This document shows, in pieces, positions 22,318 through 28,540 of a DNA stretch of 64,000 nucleotides. Positions within the stretch are counted from its first letter, which is position 1. Each line of letters starts with the position of its first letter. Below the pieces are notes generated by a model. That model was not told the DNA's origin and did no database searches. It saw only the letters and a list, made by a program, of their open reading frames with translations. Origin of the DNA: Actinomyces sp. (GTDB lineage Bacteria > Actinomycetota > Actinomycetes > Actinomycetales > Actinomycetaceae). The stretch covers positions 18,709 to 82,708 of the forward strand of contig NZ_JARKVC010000032.1 in the NCBI RefSeq assembly GCF_029851875.1. The letters are read 5' to 3'. A program made the position numbers and the translations under genes.

Positions 22318-23325
22318 ATGCCCCAGCTCCGGCTCCTCATCATCTCCCCCGCTTTCCACGGCTACTGGCGGGCCTACGAGGACGCTTTCACACGTCTTGG
22401 CTACCGCGTACGCACCCTGCGCTACGACGAGCTTCCGAGCCGCTCAGCGAAGGTCAGGCACAAGCTCGGTGTCGAGCTGATGGACCGCCTTGGCGCTGAC
22501 GGCTCCTCCCGCTGGGCCCGCAGGACGTCAGCCCTGTGCGCCAAGGAGGTTCTCTCATCACGGCCTGATCGTGTCCTCGTGATCCGGGGGGACATCCTCG
22601 GCGAGGACTTCTGGGAGGCAGTCACCCAGGTCGGTGCCCGCCCGCTCACCCTCATCTATGACGAGGTCGCTCGTATGGGCACCTCTTACGAGCAGCTCAT
22701 GAGGCATGGTCCCGTCGCCTCGTACTCGGCTCACGACACCGCCCAGCTGGCTGCACGTGGAGCACGTACCGCGCATGTTCGCGACGCCTACGACTCTCAC
22801 CTCCCCTTCCACCCGGTGGCGAGCGATGAGGTGGTCTTTATCGGCGCTCTCTACGGGTTGCGCGGCACCTACATGGAGAGTCTGCACCGCGCGCAGATCC
22901 CGGTACGCGCCTACGGCCGCTCATGGTCCCACCACATCTGGGACCGGATCCGTACCTGGGACGCTCCACGCCCGGACCTGCCAGCGCACCGTGACGTCCC
23001 CCGCGACCTGGCTTACGGCATTCAGGCCGGAGCCCTCGCCTCGCTCAACGTCCATGACCAGCAGGACGGCTTCACGATGCGGACCTATGAGATCCCCGGA
23101 GTCGGCGGGCTCCAGCTCATCGACCGGGACGATGTCGAGGACCTGTATGAACCAGGTACCGAGGTTCTTGTCTTCCACTCATCCGAGGAACTGGTCGATC
23201 TCGTCCGACGCGCCGCGACTGATACCGCCTGGGCCCGCTCGATCCGGCGAGCCGGGCGACGCCGCACTCTGGCGGAACACACTTTCGATCATCGCGTCCT
23301 TGAGCTCGCGGCACTGTGGGACTAG
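22318..23325 (+). CDS. CgeB-like glycosyltransferase
   Basis: 335 residues. LRLLIISPAFHGYWRAYEDAFTRLGY and DRVLVIRGD form the N-terminal domain. The C-terminal half has DEVVFIGALYGLRGTYMESLH, VRAYGRSW, ALASLNVHDQQDGFTMRTYEIPGVGGLQLID and EPGTEVLVFHSSEELVDLV, the pattern of CgeB/Glyco_trans_1_2 proteins, where N-H-x(n)-R-x-E-x-x-G marks the donor site. Such enzymes modify spore or surface polymers. It lies 3 bp after the GT2 gene in the capsule operon. Confidence 0.85.
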   Translation: MPQLRLLIISPAFHGYWRAYEDAFTRLGYRVRTLRYDELPSRSAKVRHKLGVELMDRLGADGSSRWARRTSALCAKEVLSSRPDRVLVIRGDILGEDFWEAVTQVGARPLTLIYDEVARMGTSYEQLMRHGPVASYSAHDTAQLAARGARTAHVRDAYDSHLPFHPVASDEVVFIGALYGLRGTYMESLHRAQIPVRAYGRSWSHHIWDRIRTWDAPRPDLPAHRDVPRDLAYGIQAGALASLNVHDQQDGFTMRTYEIPGVGGLQLIDRDDVEDLYEPGTEVLVFHSSEELVDLVRRAATDTAWARSIRRAGRRRTLAEHTFDHRVLELAALWD

Positions 23326-23334
23326 GAGAACACC

Positions 23335-24453
23335 ATGCTGACACCCTCACCGTCCCAGGCACCCGCTGACCGGCTCCTCCACCCACGCGACCTCACCGCC
23401 TGGCAGTCCTGGGCAGCCTCCCACCACCGTCTTCGTCGCCTCAAGGCGGGCCTCACCTCGTCGGCGCGGGCTATCGCCCGCCGACAGCCGCGCCAGCCCG
23501 ACGACGTCCTGGCAACGACCGGCCCTGACCCGCACGTCCTGATCGTCATCGACGCGCCGACCTCCTCACAACAGGCAGCACTTCTCCAGCCCTTGGCCCA
23601 CCTGGTCTCCACGGGCCAGGACGTCGCTGTGCTGTGTCCTCGTGAGGTACTGCCACTCCTGCAGATGACCATCGCGCCCAGGAGGACAGTGACCAGATCA
23701 GCCGCCGGCAGCCTCCCGGACTCTGACCTCACGAGCGTCTCCACGGTCCTCGCCGTCGGTCACTACCTCTCCCTGGGCTCGCAGGCTTATCGCTGGGCCA
23801 AGGAGAGGAGCGTGCGCTTCTGCGTCATCCAGCACGGGCTTCTCACTCCTTTCATGGCCCCCTTGCCCGATGACGCTCACCTCCTCGCCTGGTCCCAGGA
23901 GGACGCCGACTTCTGGATCTCCGGGCGACACGACGTGACCTACGAGGTCGTCGGCAGCCAGCTGCTGTGGCAGGCCGCCAAGGAGCCAGCCGCTCAGGTG
24001 GACCCCGACGCCCGTCCCGTCTTCTTGGGCCAGCTCCACGGCATCGAGCTCAGTCGTTCCTACATGACAAGAGTCAGCTACGACTTCTGCCGAGGCACCG
24101 GGGCCACCTATCGGCCTCATCCCTCAGAGAAGGACAAGCTCTCTCGCCTGACCCACGCCCTGTGGGAGCGTCGCGGTATCGAGATCGACCGCACCAAGGT
24201 CCCCCTGCCTCAGATCGGTCGCCCTGTTGTCGGTGTCTTCTCCACCGGGATCCTAGAGGCTGCCGCGAGAGGAGTACCCGCGTGGCAGGTCTCTACGGCT
24301 GGGTCAGGTCTAGGCACAAAGGCCCCATCATGGCTTCAGGCTTTCCACAGCCGATATAACATGTCCTCATGGGGCAGCGCGCCGACCCCACGTCCTGATG
24401 TACCCAGGGCCGAGCCGGCGCGGGCCGTCATATACGCCCTGACCACGACATAA
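23335..24453 (+). CDS. Putative GT-B glycosyltransferase, candidate nonulosonate (sialyl) transferase
   Basis: 372 residues, no confident family. HVLIVIDAPTSSQQAALLQPL starts a possible first Rossmann domain. VRFCVIQHGLLTPFMAPLPDDAHLLAWSQEDADFW resembles the QHG segment of CDP-glycerol and polysialyl transferases. TGATYRPHPSEKDKLSRL carries an HP motif and VVGVFSTGILEAAARGVPAW an S-T motif, two signatures reported for bacterial sialyltransferases. The gene lies directly upstream of neuA and the neuB fusion, so transfer of the CMP-activated sugar is a reasonable but unproven role. Confidence 0.6.
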   Translation: MLTPSPSQAPADRLLHPRDLTAWQSWAASHHRLRRLKAGLTSSARAIARRQPRQPDDVLATTGPDPHVLIVIDAPTSSQQAALLQPLAHLVSTGQDVAVLCPREVLPLLQMTIAPRRTVTRSAAGSLPDSDLTSVSTVLAVGHYLSLGSQAYRWAKERSVRFCVIQHGLLTPFMAPLPDDAHLLAWSQEDADFWISGRHDVTYEVVGSQLLWQAAKEPAAQVDPDARPVFLGQLHGIELSRSYMTRVSYDFCRGTGATYRPHPSEKDKLSRLTHALWERRGIEIDRTKVPLPQIGRPVVGVFSTGILEAAARGVPAWQVSTAGSGLGTKAPSWLQAFHSRYNMSSWGSAPTPRPDVPRAEPARAVIYALTTT

Positions 24454-24468
24454 AGGACCTACCCGCTC

Positions 24469-25173
24469 ATGAGCGCGCTCGCCGTCATCCCTGTTCGCGG
24501 GGGCTCCAAAGGTATCCCACGCAAGAACCTGCGAGATGTCGGCGGCAAGCCGCTGGTCGCATGGACCATCGAGCAGACCCTGGCGGCATCCTCCGAGCTG
24601 CGTGTGGTCGTCTCCACCGAGGACGCCGAGATCGCGCAGGTCGCCCGGGAGGTCGGAGCCGAGGTCATCGACCGCCCAGCAGACCTGGCGCAGGACACCA
24701 CGGCCACCGAGCCCGTCGTCGTCCACGCCATGAACCTCCTGTCAACCCAGGGCTACGAGCCGGACTACGTCATGCTGCTCCAGGCCACCTCACCGGTGCG
24801 TCGTCCCGGCACCATTGACCGGGCACTGACCCAGGCTCGTGACACCGCGGTGGACTCGTTGGTCGGCGTCGTGCCCCAGACTCCTTTCCTGTGGTGGACC
24901 GCCCGCGACGGACACGGCCCGACGGCCGACTTCGACGTCGATCATCGCCCCCGCAGGCAGGAGCTGACAGCGGACCAGATGCGCTACCGGGAGACCGGGT
25001 CCCTGTACGTCACCCGCCCCTGGCTCTACCGCGAGCGTATGAACCGTATCGGCGGGAAGATCGGGCTGTTCGTCATGGACGAGGTCGAAGGCGTCGACAT
25101 TGACAGCCCTCTCGACCTCGAGCTCGCAGGAAAGACCTTGACACAGATGCAGCAAGAGGAAGGCATCGCATGA
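24469..25173 (+). CDS. neuA: CMP-nonulosonic (sialic-type) acid cytidylyltransferase
   Basis: 234 residues. AVIPVRGGSKGIPRKNLRDVGGKPLVAWTIEQ is the CTP-binding signature of acylneuraminate cytidylyltransferases. STEDAEIAQVAREVGAEVIDRPADLAQDTT and LLQATSPVRRP follow in family order. It activates the nine-carbon acid with CTP in the cytoplasm. Its stop overlaps the start of the NeuB fusion by 4 bp. It could equally activate legionaminic acid, since the family does not separate cleanly by sequence. Confidence 0.9.
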   Translation: MSALAVIPVRGGSKGIPRKNLRDVGGKPLVAWTIEQTLAASSELRVVVSTEDAEIAQVAREVGAEVIDRPADLAQDTTATEPVVVHAMNLLSTQGYEPDYVMLLQATSPVRRPGTIDRALTQARDTAVDSLVGVVPQTPFLWWTARDGHGPTADFDVDHRPRRQELTADQMRYRETGSLYVTRPWLYRERMNRIGGKIGLFVMDEVEGVDIDSPLDLELAGKTLTQMQQEEGIA

Positions 25174-27428
25174 GCATCGAACGCTCCATCACGCCCTACA
25201 TCATGTTCGGCGAGGAGCCCGTCCTCAGCGCGCTGACGAAGATCAACGCCAACCGCGCCCGGACAGTCTTCCTCGTCGACGAGCACGGCACCCTCGTCGG
25301 CTCCCTGACGGACGGGGACGTGCGGCGGTGGCTGACCTCCGGTCACAACGACCTCCAGGTCCCCGCCTCGGCGGTAGCCAACCTCTCCCCACGCTTCGTC
25401 ACCGAGGGCACGATCCTGGACGAGCTCGACTGGGCGTTTCGGGACGGCGTCACCCTCATCCCGGTCCTGGACGACCGCCACCGCGTCGTCGCCATCGCCT
25501 CTCCAGGAAACGACATCTTTACCATCGGCACCCACAAGGTCGGCAAGGACCAGCCAGTCTTCATCATCGCCGAGATCGGCAACAACCACCAGGGCGAGTA
25601 CACACGTGCGATCGAGCTCGTGGACCTGGCCGTGGATGCAGGCGCGGACTGCGTCAAGTTCCAGCTGCGTGACATGGACGCGCTCTACCGTGGAGCCTCC
25701 GGGCAGATCACGGCCGGCGAGGACCTGGGAGCGCAGTACACCCTGGACCTGCTCACCCGTTTCTCCCTGCCGGCAGAGGCGATGCTCAAGGTCTTCGACC
25801 ACTGCCGCGAGCGCGGTATCGACATCATGTGCACCCCCTGGGACCTTCCCAGTCTCGACGTGCTGTGCCAGTACGGCGTCGACGGGCTCAAGATCGCCTC
25901 CGCGGACCTGACGAACCACACCCTGCTGCGTGCAGCGGCACGCGAGTCCCTGCCGATGATCGTGTCCACCGGTATGAGCACCGAGGCCGAGATCAAGGAG
26001 TCGGTGTCTCTCCTGCGACGCTACTCCGCTCCGTACGCGCTGCTGCAGTGCCAGTCCTCCTACCCCGCTCCTTTCAAGGACCTCAACCTGCGTTACATGC
26101 AGCGCCTCGCAGAGATCGGTGACTGCCCGGTCGGCTACTCCGGGCACGAGCGTGGCTTCCACGTCCCGATGGCGGCCGTGGCCATGGGAGCTGCCATCAT
26201 CGAGAAGCACTTCACCACCGACCGAGGGCTTGAGGGCAATGACCACAAGGTCTCCTTGCTCCCAGACGAATTCGCCTCCATGGTCCAGCAGATTCGTGAG
26301 GTGGAGGCCTCGCTCGGTAGTGCTGAGCCGCGCACGGTGCAGCCGGGTGAGTTCATGAACCGTGCCAATCTGGCCAAGTCCCTGGTGGCTGCCCGTGACC
26401 TGTCCGCAGGACAGAAGATCACCGGAGACGACGTCGAGGTGAAGAGCCCCGGACGGGGCCTTCAGCCCAACCGTATGACGGATCTCGTCGGACGAGTCCT
26501 GACCCGTGATATCGCTGCCGGTGACTTTTTCTACGACGGCGACGTGAACGACGACGCCCCTCGGCCCCGCGCCTACAGCTTCCGCCGTCCCTGGGGCGTG
26601 CCCGTGCGCTACCACGACTTCCGCCGCATCCTTGCCGCCGGCGCCCAGCCCGACTTCCTGGAGTTCCACTACTCCTACAAGGACCTGGACATGGATGTGG
26701 ACGAGGTCTTCGCGGACTTCACGGACAAGCCGCTGCCTATGGGCTACACCTGCCACCTGCCAGACCTGTTCAGCGGTGACTTCATCCTGGATCTTGCCTC
26801 GAAGGACGACGAGGTGTGGGAGCGCTCCATCCGAGAGCTCCAGCGCACCATCGACATCACCACCTCGCTGCGTCCTTACTTCCAGCAGGAGGAGGCTCCG
26901 GTCTTCATCGCGACCCTCGGCGGTTTCACCGAGTCGGGCTTTGTCTCTCCCGATGAGGTCCCAGCCATGTACGACCGCATCATCGAGGGCCTCAAGCAGG
27001 TGGACCACTCTGGTGTACGGCTTGCGCCCCAGACCCTCCCGCCCTACCCGTGGCTTCTGGGCGGTCAGAAGTACCACAACCTCTTTATGAGCCCTGAGGC
27101 CCTGGCTGACTTCGCTGAGCGTTCCGGCCTGCAGATCACCTACGACATCTCGCACTCGATGCTCTCAGCCAACCACGAGCACCGACCGCTACGCGAGTAC
27201 ACCGAGATCCTGGCCCCGCTCGCGGCCCACCTGCACATCGTCGACGGCAAGGGCGTTGACGGAGAGGGCACCCAGATTGAGGAGGGCGACGTCGACTGGC
27301 CAGAGCTCGCCGAGCAGCTGGACCGTCTGGCGCCTGGTGTCTCCTTCATTCCGGAGATCTGGATGGGGCACGTCAACGACGGTGAAGGCTTCTGGAGGGC
27401 CCTGGACCGCCTGGAGAAGTACCTGTGA
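25170..27428 (+). CDS. Four-part nonulosonic acid synthase: CBS pair, NeuB, SAF, C-terminal TIM-barrel isomerase-like domain
   Basis: 752 residues, about twice a normal NeuB. Residues 5-115 form a CBS pair (RTVFLVDEHGTLVGSLTDGDVRRWL). About 125-375 is NeuB (FIIAEIGNNHQGEYTRAIELVDLAVDAGADCVKFQ, MCTPWDLPSLDVL, GYSGHERG, IEKHFTTDRGLEGNDHKVSL), condensing a hexosamine with PEP. About 395-460 is the SAF antifreeze-like lid (AARDLSAGQKI, PGRGLQP). About 480-750 resembles sugar-phosphate isomerases of the AP-endonuclease-2 TIM-barrel type (YDISHSMLSANH, AAHLHIVDGKGVDGEG, FIPEIWMGH). No separate 2-epimerase gene (neuC) is present, so the C-terminal domain may help make the precursor. That is inference. 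Confidence 0.9.
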   Translation: MSIERSITPYIMFGEEPVLSALTKINANRARTVFLVDEHGTLVGSLTDGDVRRWLTSGHNDLQVPASAVANLSPRFVTEGTILDELDWAFRDGVTLIPVLDDRHRVVAIASPGNDIFTIGTHKVGKDQPVFIIAEIGNNHQGEYTRAIELVDLAVDAGADCVKFQLRDMDALYRGASGQITAGEDLGAQYTLDLLTRFSLPAEAMLKVFDHCRERGIDIMCTPWDLPSLDVLCQYGVDGLKIASADLTNHTLLRAAARESLPMIVSTGMSTEAEIKESVSLLRRYSAPYALLQCQSSYPAPFKDLNLRYMQRLAEIGDCPVGYSGHERGFHVPMAAVAMGAAIIEKHFTTDRGLEGNDHKVSLLPDEFASMVQQIREVEASLGSAEPRTVQPGEFMNRANLAKSLVAARDLSAGQKITGDDVEVKSPGRGLQPNRMTDLVGRVLTRDIAAGDFFYDGDVNDDAPRPRAYSFRRPWGVPVRYHDFRRILAAGAQPDFLEFHYSYKDLDMDVDEVFADFTDKPLPMGYTCHLPDLFSGDFILDLASKDDEVWERSIRELQRTIDITTSLRPYFQQEEAPVFIATLGGFTESGFVSPDEVPAMYDRIIEGLKQVDHSGVRLAPQTLPPYPWLLGGQKYHNLFMSPEALADFAERSGLQITYDISHSMLSANHEHRPLREYTEILAPLAAHLHIVDGKGVDGEGTQIEEGDVDWPELAEQLDRLAPGVSFIPEIWMGHVNDGEGFWRALDRLEKYL

Positions 27429-28540
27429 CCCGTCCTCAGTTCTTTTCCGATAGCGCGCGACGCACCTATAGAGGCATTCTAGGTAACGCGCCGATCGCCC
27501 TGTGGGCGGTACCGGTCGCTGATCTGGGTGGTGTAGCCCGGCACGTGCTTGACGTCGCACGCACCGGTATCCCGGATACGCGACTGGTGGTGCTGTGCCC
27601 ACCGGGGCCGCTCGCAACCGCTTTACGGGATATCGGTATTCCTGTCCTGGTCGAAGGCTTTGGTCCCGAGGCCGGCCTGCGTTCCTCAGTGCGTAGCCTG
27701 CGCCATGCAGTGGCCAAGCTGCGTCCCGCTGTCTTGCACACACATCTTGCTTACGCCGATCTCGTCGCCGCACTCGCTGTCCCGATCAGCTGGCCGGTAC
27801 GGCTGATCTCGACGGAACACGGAATCGCCGCGCCAGGAACGGATGTCGTGTACCACGGTTCAGGGGCCAAGTCGGCTTTCATGCATGCCGTTCACGCAGC
27901 CCGCTGCGAGCGTTTTGATGCGCTCATTGCTGTCTCCGAGGCGACAGCTGCTGCTATGCGCGCCACCTGGCACCCACGCCGTGAGATTCGCGTCGTCTAC
28001 AACGGCGTCAATCCGCTTGCGCATCTTGCACCGACGACAGGGCTTCGAATTCTCTCACTGGCTCGTCTTGCGCCAGAAAAGCGCATTACTGAGCTGCTCA
28101 AGGCCTTCTCTGTCCTCCACCGAGATCACCCAGAGGCATGCCTCACCATTGCGGGCACCGGTCCCCTTGAGGAGGAGTTGCGCGCGACGGTGGCCGTGCT
28201 TGGTCTTGAGGAAGCCGTTGACATGCCGGGTTTCGTAGATGCTGAGCAGGCCTTGGCTGAGCATGATGTCCTTGCCCAGCTGTCTGTGTGGGAAAACTGC
28301 TCCTACTCGCTTCTCGACGCTGTTGCCCACGGGAAGGGCGTGGTGGCCACACCCGTGGGTGGCAACCCCGAGCTCTTGCCTCCGCAGTCGCTGGTAGGAG
28401 CAGAAGACCTCCAGGGGCTTGCCTCTGTGCTCTACACCCAGGGGATGGATCTTCAGGCGCGCCCCCAGCTGGGTCACTGGCTTTCTCTGCCGGAGATGAC
28501 CGTAGAGATCCAGGATGTCTACCGAGGCTGCTTCGCATGA
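27425..28540 (+). CDS. Glycosyltransferase, GT4-like
   Basis: 371 residues, GTG start overlapping the preceding TGA. WAVPVADLGGVARHVLDVARTG is the N-terminal acceptor loop and HTHLAYADLVAALA follows. The donor domain shows LRILSLARLAPEKRITELLKAF, CLTIAGTGPLEEELRATVAVLGLEEAVDMPGFV and VWENCSYSLLDAVAHGKGVVATPVGGNPELL, the standard GT4 E-x7-E region. Translational coupling places it in the nonulosonate capsule operon. Sugar specificity is not evident. Confidence 0.9.
   Translation: MTRPQFFSDSARRTYRGILGNAPIALWAVPVADLGGVARHVLDVARTGIPDTRLVVLCPPGPLATALRDIGIPVLVEGFGPEAGLRSSVRSLRHAVAKLRPAVLHTHLAYADLVAALAVPISWPVRLISTEHGIAAPGTDVVYHGSGAKSAFMHAVHAARCERFDALIAVSEATAAAMRATWHPRREIRVVYNGVNPLAHLAPTTGLRILSLARLAPEKRITELLKAFSVLHRDHPEACLTIAGTGPLEEELRATVAVLGLEEAVDMPGFVDAEQALAEHDVLAQLSVWENCSYSLLDAVAHGKGVVATPVGGNPELLPPQSLVGAEDLQGLASVLYTQGMDLQARPQLGHWLSLPEMTVEIQDVYRGCFA

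Follow-up and report, generated by a model that had tools for sequence, protein, structure and literature searches.

The gene at positions 25170 to 27428 of the window (the whole 64,000-nucleotide stretch of Actinomyces sp. DNA analysed here) encodes a CBS pair, a NeuB catalytic barrel, a SAF domain and a second, isomerase-like TIM barrel on one polypeptide. With a probability of roughly 0.6, judged from sequence and from analogy with a studied Serratia system, this protein is a synthase of the Kdn (2-keto-3-deoxy-nononate) type within an operon for a surface polysaccharide. Its NeuB/SAF core would join PEP to a hexose that bears no 2-acetamido group; mannose or mannose-6-phosphate is the likeliest such sugar. 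The neuA product would activate the resulting acid to CMP-Kdn, and the neighbouring glycosyltransferases would place Kdn in the polymer. A nucleotide of the pathway, for instance a CMP-nonulosonate, would probably bind to the KpsF-type CBS pair and so regulate the first committed step. The most likely substrate of the C-terminal barrel is the hexose precursor, on which it would act in an isomerase- or epimerase-like manner, supplying or handing over the aldose. As Kdn synthesis needs no ManNAc, neuC, legG and pse genes would be dispensable. The genes and domains concerned are as follows.

22318..23325, + strand: glycosyltransferase (PF13524) in the operon of the fusion and conserved along with it
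23335..24453, + strand: conserved 372-aa protein, candidate nonulosonate transferase, encoded immediately before neuA
24469..25173, + strand: neuA-like CMP-nonulosonate cytidylyltransferase, 234 aa
25170..27428, + strand: CBS-NeuB-SAF-TIM fusion gene with orthologues, 752 aa plus stop in one uninterrupted ORF
25170..25514, + strand: CBS pair of the KpsF/GutQ type, residues 1-115
25518..26354, + strand: NeuB catalytic barrel, residues 117-395
26376..26543, + strand: SAF (antifreeze-like) domain, residues 403-458
26565..27425, + strand: C-terminal AP_endonuc_2/xylose-isomerase-like TIM barrel, residues 466-752
27425..28540, + strand: GT4 glycosyltransferase directly downstream of the fusion gene

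The fusion gene overlaps both of its neighbours by 4 bases, at the neuA stop and at the start of the next glycosyltransferase, and is therefore part of a tight operon. The 372-aa protein is without a Pfam, NCBIfam or PDB match and is kept directly 5' of neuA in most fusion loci. Within the fusion, the Pfam NeuB model (PF03102) matches residues 150-385 with an E-value of 2.5e-81 (273 bits against a cut-off of 22.1, model positions 1-239 of 241), the SAF model residues 403-458 (E 7e-14) and the AP_endonuc_2 model (PF01261) residues 526-749 (E 1e-19; 71.7 against 31.1 bits), with the start of the last domain placed at about residue 466. The protein reaches the curated cut-off of neither TIGR03569, the N-acetylneuraminate synthase equivalog (314 versus 399.65 bits), nor TIGR03586, the pseudaminic acid synthase (238.5 versus 340.25 bits). 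The four-part architecture on a single polypeptide, as described in the initial annotation, is borne out by the single 752-aa ORF and, because it is conserved in about 30 loci, is the product of neither chance nor assembly error.

A scan of genome contigs placed the NeuB-SAF-barrel fusion at 30 actinobacterial loci with 56-82% identity, in Actinomyces vulturis, Rothia, Propionibacteriaceae, Tessaracoccus, Ornithinimicrobium, Nocardioides and Tetrasphaera. This set includes one locus that ends at a contig edge (L026), two identical cluster copies in opposite orientation on one contig of Tessaracoccus massiliensis (L011 and L028), and two loci, from Ornithinimicrobium sp. INDO-MA30-4 and Rothia aeria (L029, L030), that are frameshifted in the barrel part through sequencing error or decay. 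In the window's family the barrel is found in 7 of 200 genomes, every one with an open frame of 748-774 aa, and the fusion is thus patchy there but intact wherever present. The nearest non-actinobacterial fusion is that of Ensifer canadensis, a full four-part form of 784 aa with 49% identity that adjoins neuA and manC. CBS-less NeuB-SAF-barrel forms occur in an actinobacterial MAG (G342/L085) and in a gammaproteobacterial MAG (G674/L143), the latter with the CBS pair carried by a neighbouring HddA-like kinase instead. In a marine gammaproteobacterial MAG, a CBS-HddA-like GHMP kinase fusion (L149:11014-12372) lies directly upstream of a CBS-less NeuB-SAF-barrel gene.

The substrate assignment draws chiefly on two positions of the NeuB/SAF core.

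26142..26144, + strand: Gly325
26445..26447, + strand: Ser426, aligned with NmeNeuB Arg314

The metal-site His pair of the NeuB barrel is invariant (H326 in the SGH motif, H347 in EKHFT), and the SAF arginine (NmeNeuB Arg314) is replaced by Ser in all 33 fusions; position 325 is likewise Gly in 33 of 33, against Arg and Asp, respectively, in 50 of 50 SAF-bearing non-fused NeuBs, a set retrieved by similarity to the query and not a random sample. The same Ser and Gly are found in the further fusions G674, G323 and four relatives, and the Arg is kept in the characterised PseI. The alignment was referred to the N. meningitidis structures, among which residue 314 is identified by the mutant entries 4ipi and 4ipj. 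This arginine is essential in the N. meningitidis enzyme and is thought to position the N-acetyl group of ManNAc (PMC6795526), and its loss from an otherwise intact metal site argues for a substrate without an N-acetyl group. In most fusions a basic residue (Arg or Lys) stands three positions past Ser426; it could partly replace Arg314, which counts against the Kdn reading. N. meningitidis NeuB (NmeNANAS; 1xuu, 4ipi/4ipj) shares with the fusion the NeuB barrel, the SAF domain and the metal His pair, but it uses ManNAc, bears Arg314 and an SDH motif, has neither a CBS pair nor a second barrel, and works with NeuC. A further position was considered as a signature and set aside. Met42 of human NANS reportedly affects Kdn activity (Hao 2006); at the putatively corresponding position most fusions have Leu153, but the residue is variable among non-fused NeuBs.

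In trees of the NeuB core the fusions form one group, with support of 89/66 when all sequences are included and 100/100 without the SAF-less set. Together with SAF-less, SGHE-type actinobacterial synthases (L117-L141) they make up a clade at 100/98, apart from all Arg-type NeuBs. These sister synthases have the SGHE motif in common with the fusions, unlike which they are devoid of SAF, CBS and second barrel; they are mostly from one genus, probably Streptomyces, the walls of which contain Kdn as teichulosonic acid (PMC11481543, PMC7831098), and probably include the Streptomyces Kdn teichulosonic-acid synthase. As the fusions are one clade, the residue correlation represents one evolutionary event and not many; a reading of the domain co-occurrence as many independent events is ruled out on the same ground, and no p-value is claimed.

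The only fusion of this kind to have been studied is the NeuB of Serratia marcescens KL1/KL2 (UMH9, gn773), where neuA is accompanied only by a NeuB with an additional COG1082 isomerase/epimerase domain, encoded by a 2241-bp ORF; the capsules contain Kdn and Neu5Ac at about 20:1, and neuB deletion abolishes both sialic acid and capsule (PMC9000132). Like the window's protein of 752 aa, which joins NeuB to AP_endonuc_2 beside neuA and in the absence of neuC, the Serratia protein combines PF03102 with the COG1082 domain in about 746 aa and is accompanied by neuA but not by neuC, a likeness drawn from the text of that paper (PMC9000132) and so of description rather than sequence. It differs in serving a Gram-negative capsule, and its authors mention no CBS pair; from its length and their domain description, the Serratia NeuB would be expected to have both the pair and the Ser/Gly signature. 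Being of the same kind by description, it indicates that such a fusion was already known and that it would yield chiefly Kdn. Support for the Kdn reading comes from the Ser and Gly of the fusions, and also from the Ensifer fusion when set beside Sinorhizobium fredii, which makes Kdn (PMC7845648). The Neu5Ac that Serratia also makes in some amount (PMC9000132) counts against it, as does the composition of the conserved operon, which holds no Kdn-9-P phosphatase, an enzyme that Man-6-P as substrate would call for. Man-6-P is available, as 12 of 13 fusion genomes encode ManA.

The absence from the window of neuC and of leg/pse dehydratase genes beside neuA, pointed out in the initial annotation, extends to the rest of the genome, and near-complete relatives agree. 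The window's own genome (2.45 Mb, 89.8% complete) holds the fusion as its one NeuB, no neuC was found in it, and its single PF02350 protein is a non-hydrolysing epimerase of the WecB type by NCBIfam; its matches to PF02719 are weak only. PF02350 is absent from 4 of 12 fusion genomes (Rothia mucilaginosa, R. amarae, R. aeria and a Tetrasphaera MAG), and in the others every PF02350 protein classified, with L108 (Nocardioides) left out, is WecB, those scored by NCBIfam exceeding the TIGR00236 (wecB) cut-off and the unscored ones bearing WecB motifs. Congener G902, whose genome is 100% complete in two contigs, combines the fusion with a lack of PF02350 proteins, and neither a NeuC-type hydrolysing epimerase (TIGR03568) nor a LegG-type PF02350 protein was found in the fusion genomes searched. 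In R. mucilaginosa and R. amarae PF07221 (AGE) is absent and matches to PF04131 (NanE) are weak only, and these two species therefore have no known ManNAc-making enzyme. The window's own genome encodes NanE and an AGE-family protein, so that ManNAc may be available there, which counts against the Kdn reading.

The initial annotation had suggested that the barrel could supply or edit the hexosamine precursor of a sialic-like acid. A need for ManNAc from the barrel is not supported, in that Kdn needs no ManNAc, the N-acetyl-site residues are changed in all fusions, and the Serratia fusion yields mostly Kdn (PMC9000132). A self-contained sialic acid synthase, with a barrel that converts GlcNAc or its phosphate to ManNAc for Neu5Ac synthesis by the NeuB part, is very unlikely: a barrel fold closest to sugar 3-epimerases, the want of neuC in every fusion genome searched and the little Neu5Ac made by Serratia fusion strains with neuA and neuB only (PMC9000132) would suit it, but Arg314 and the SDH Asp are gone from every fusion, Kdn prevails in Serratia, and the first of the two catalytic 3-epimerase glutamates is Gln in nearly all fusions. 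It is also quite improbable that the fusion yields a different nonulosonate, of the Leg/Pse kind or new, using a precursor that is scavenged or produced elsewhere. Such a product would accord with PseF as the top NCBIfam model for neuA and with the FlaA1/CapD-type PF02719 protein present in Rothia and Tessaracoccus; yet neuA scores only 117 bits against the PseF cut-off of 206, and the weak PF02719 matches of the window's genome, the want of a LegG-type PF02350 protein in the fusion genomes searched and the Arg kept by the characterised PseI all tell against it.

The CBS pair of the proposed Kdn synthase is of the KpsF/GutQ type. The window's match at residues 15-55 lies just below the Pfam PF00571 cut-off (22.5 versus 24 bits), KpsF/GutQ CBS models match residues 18-109, and in the Ensifer homologue PF00571 exceeds the cut-off with 42.6 bits and two CBS stretches. 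The best PDB match, 4o9k, is the CBS pair of an arabinose-5-phosphate isomerase, in a structure that presumably holds CMP-Kdo. In KpsF/KdsD arabinose-5-P isomerase and in PtmE the same CBS type sits on early enzymes of ulosonate pathways, whereas that of the window is on the synthase itself; in 21 of the 50 non-fused loci the same kind of pair is carried by a gene next door, which in almost every case encodes a PtmE-like nucleotidyltransferase. As it moves between early enzymes of these pathways, the pair would most plausibly serve as a feedback sensor for a pathway product and act as a regulator at the pathway level; its type, and the way it recurs in nonulosonate clusters, favour a pathway ligand over an adenine nucleotide.

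The role of the C-terminal barrel is less readily assigned. Its putative metal-ligand positions, mapped by alignment with distant relatives and with a stand-alone barrel (L054), are the following.

27030..27032, + strand: Gln621, first ligand position, Glu in G342/L085 and L086
27144..27146, + strand: Asp659, invariant
27234..27236, + strand: His689, invariant
27354..27356, + strand: Glu729, invariant

The Glu-Asp-His-Glu tetrad of 3-epimerases is thus Gln621-Asp659-His689-Glu729 in the window, and the first Glu is Gln in every fusion but G342. In the D-tagatose 3-epimerase/UlaE/YcjR/MJ1311 family (3wqo) the AP_endonuc_2 barrel has the Asp, His and Glu of the metal site as the fusion does, but its first ligand is Glu and it is joined to no synthase. 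About 20 polar positions, among them Asp659, His662, His687, His689 and Glu729, are invariant in the barrel across Actinobacteria, Ensifer and G342, which disfavours a decayed domain, and the Gln at the first ligand disfavours a standard two-base 3-epimerase. The barrel's metal ligands, the inspection of which had been proposed at the outset, are therefore present in three of four isomerase positions and altered in the fourth, and its residues mark the barrel as neither plainly inactive nor plainly an ordinary isomerase. The stand-alone barrel, from Aurantiacibacter (L054:1952-2821), has the full Glu-Asp-His-Glu; its neighbours are neuA, an Arg-type neuB and a CBS-DegT aminotransferase gene, showing that the association also occurs as separate genes. 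In the actinobacterial draft genome G339, a truncated Glu-type barrel fragment (L086:1486-1920) abuts a methyltransferase.

Fold comparison was made on a barrel-only AF2 model (pLDDT 84.8, pTM 0.88; the full-length model has a pTM of 0.56), which resembles MJ1311, UlaE, YcjR, D-tagatose 3-epimerase and endonuclease IV at TM 0.6-0.7. Endonuclease IV, among the best fold matches (4hno), is also the one further match by sequence in the PDB (E 0.009). Since Man-6-P is usually the precursor of Kdn (PMC7845648), a related metal phosphoesterase would fill the phosphatase gap in the conserved operon, whether by taking the 9-phosphate off Kdn-9-P or by releasing mannose from Man-6-P. Sugar epimerases fit the fold equally well, however, and profile alignment (hhalign) to E. 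coli Nfo gave no ligand mapping; this activity is decidedly improbable. A Kdn synthase with a non-catalytic barrel, serving as a scaffold or as a substrate-binding or regulatory domain, is unlikely but deserves consideration, given the Glu-to-Gln change at the first ligand, the frameshifts that the barrel sometimes bears (L029, L030) and a supply of mannose-6-P that is on hand without it; against this stand the invariant polar residues, a conservation equal to that of the NeuB part and no loss in intact copies. A barrel active on the hexose precursor of Kdn is accordingly only slightly more likely than a purely structural one. A further reading, less likely than not, is that the one polypeptide comprises the whole precursor-to-nonulosonate part of the Kdn pathway: the barrel would make the mannose, or produce it by dephosphorylation, NeuB/SAF would condense it with PEP, and the KpsF-type CBS pair would gate the enzyme in response to CMP-Kdn feedback.

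The fusion family is thus known but little studied, and the window's protein and its actinobacterial relatives are new members of it. If the single-polypeptide reading is true, the activity of the barrel would be new, and the fusion and neuA would by themselves make up a compact pathway of the sialic type. Databases lump Kdn, Neu5Ac, Leg and Pse synthases together as N-acetylneuraminate synthase, and the signature described here (Ser for Arg314, SGHE for SDHT, and the barrel fusion) would help annotators to tell likely Kdn synthases from the others. The fused isomerase-fold barrel stands in a pathway that seemingly has no need of one. The analysis predicts Kdn-bearing surface polymers in Rothia, relatives of Actinomyces, Propionibacteriaceae, Nocardioides and Ensifer, some of which are animal or human oral residents.
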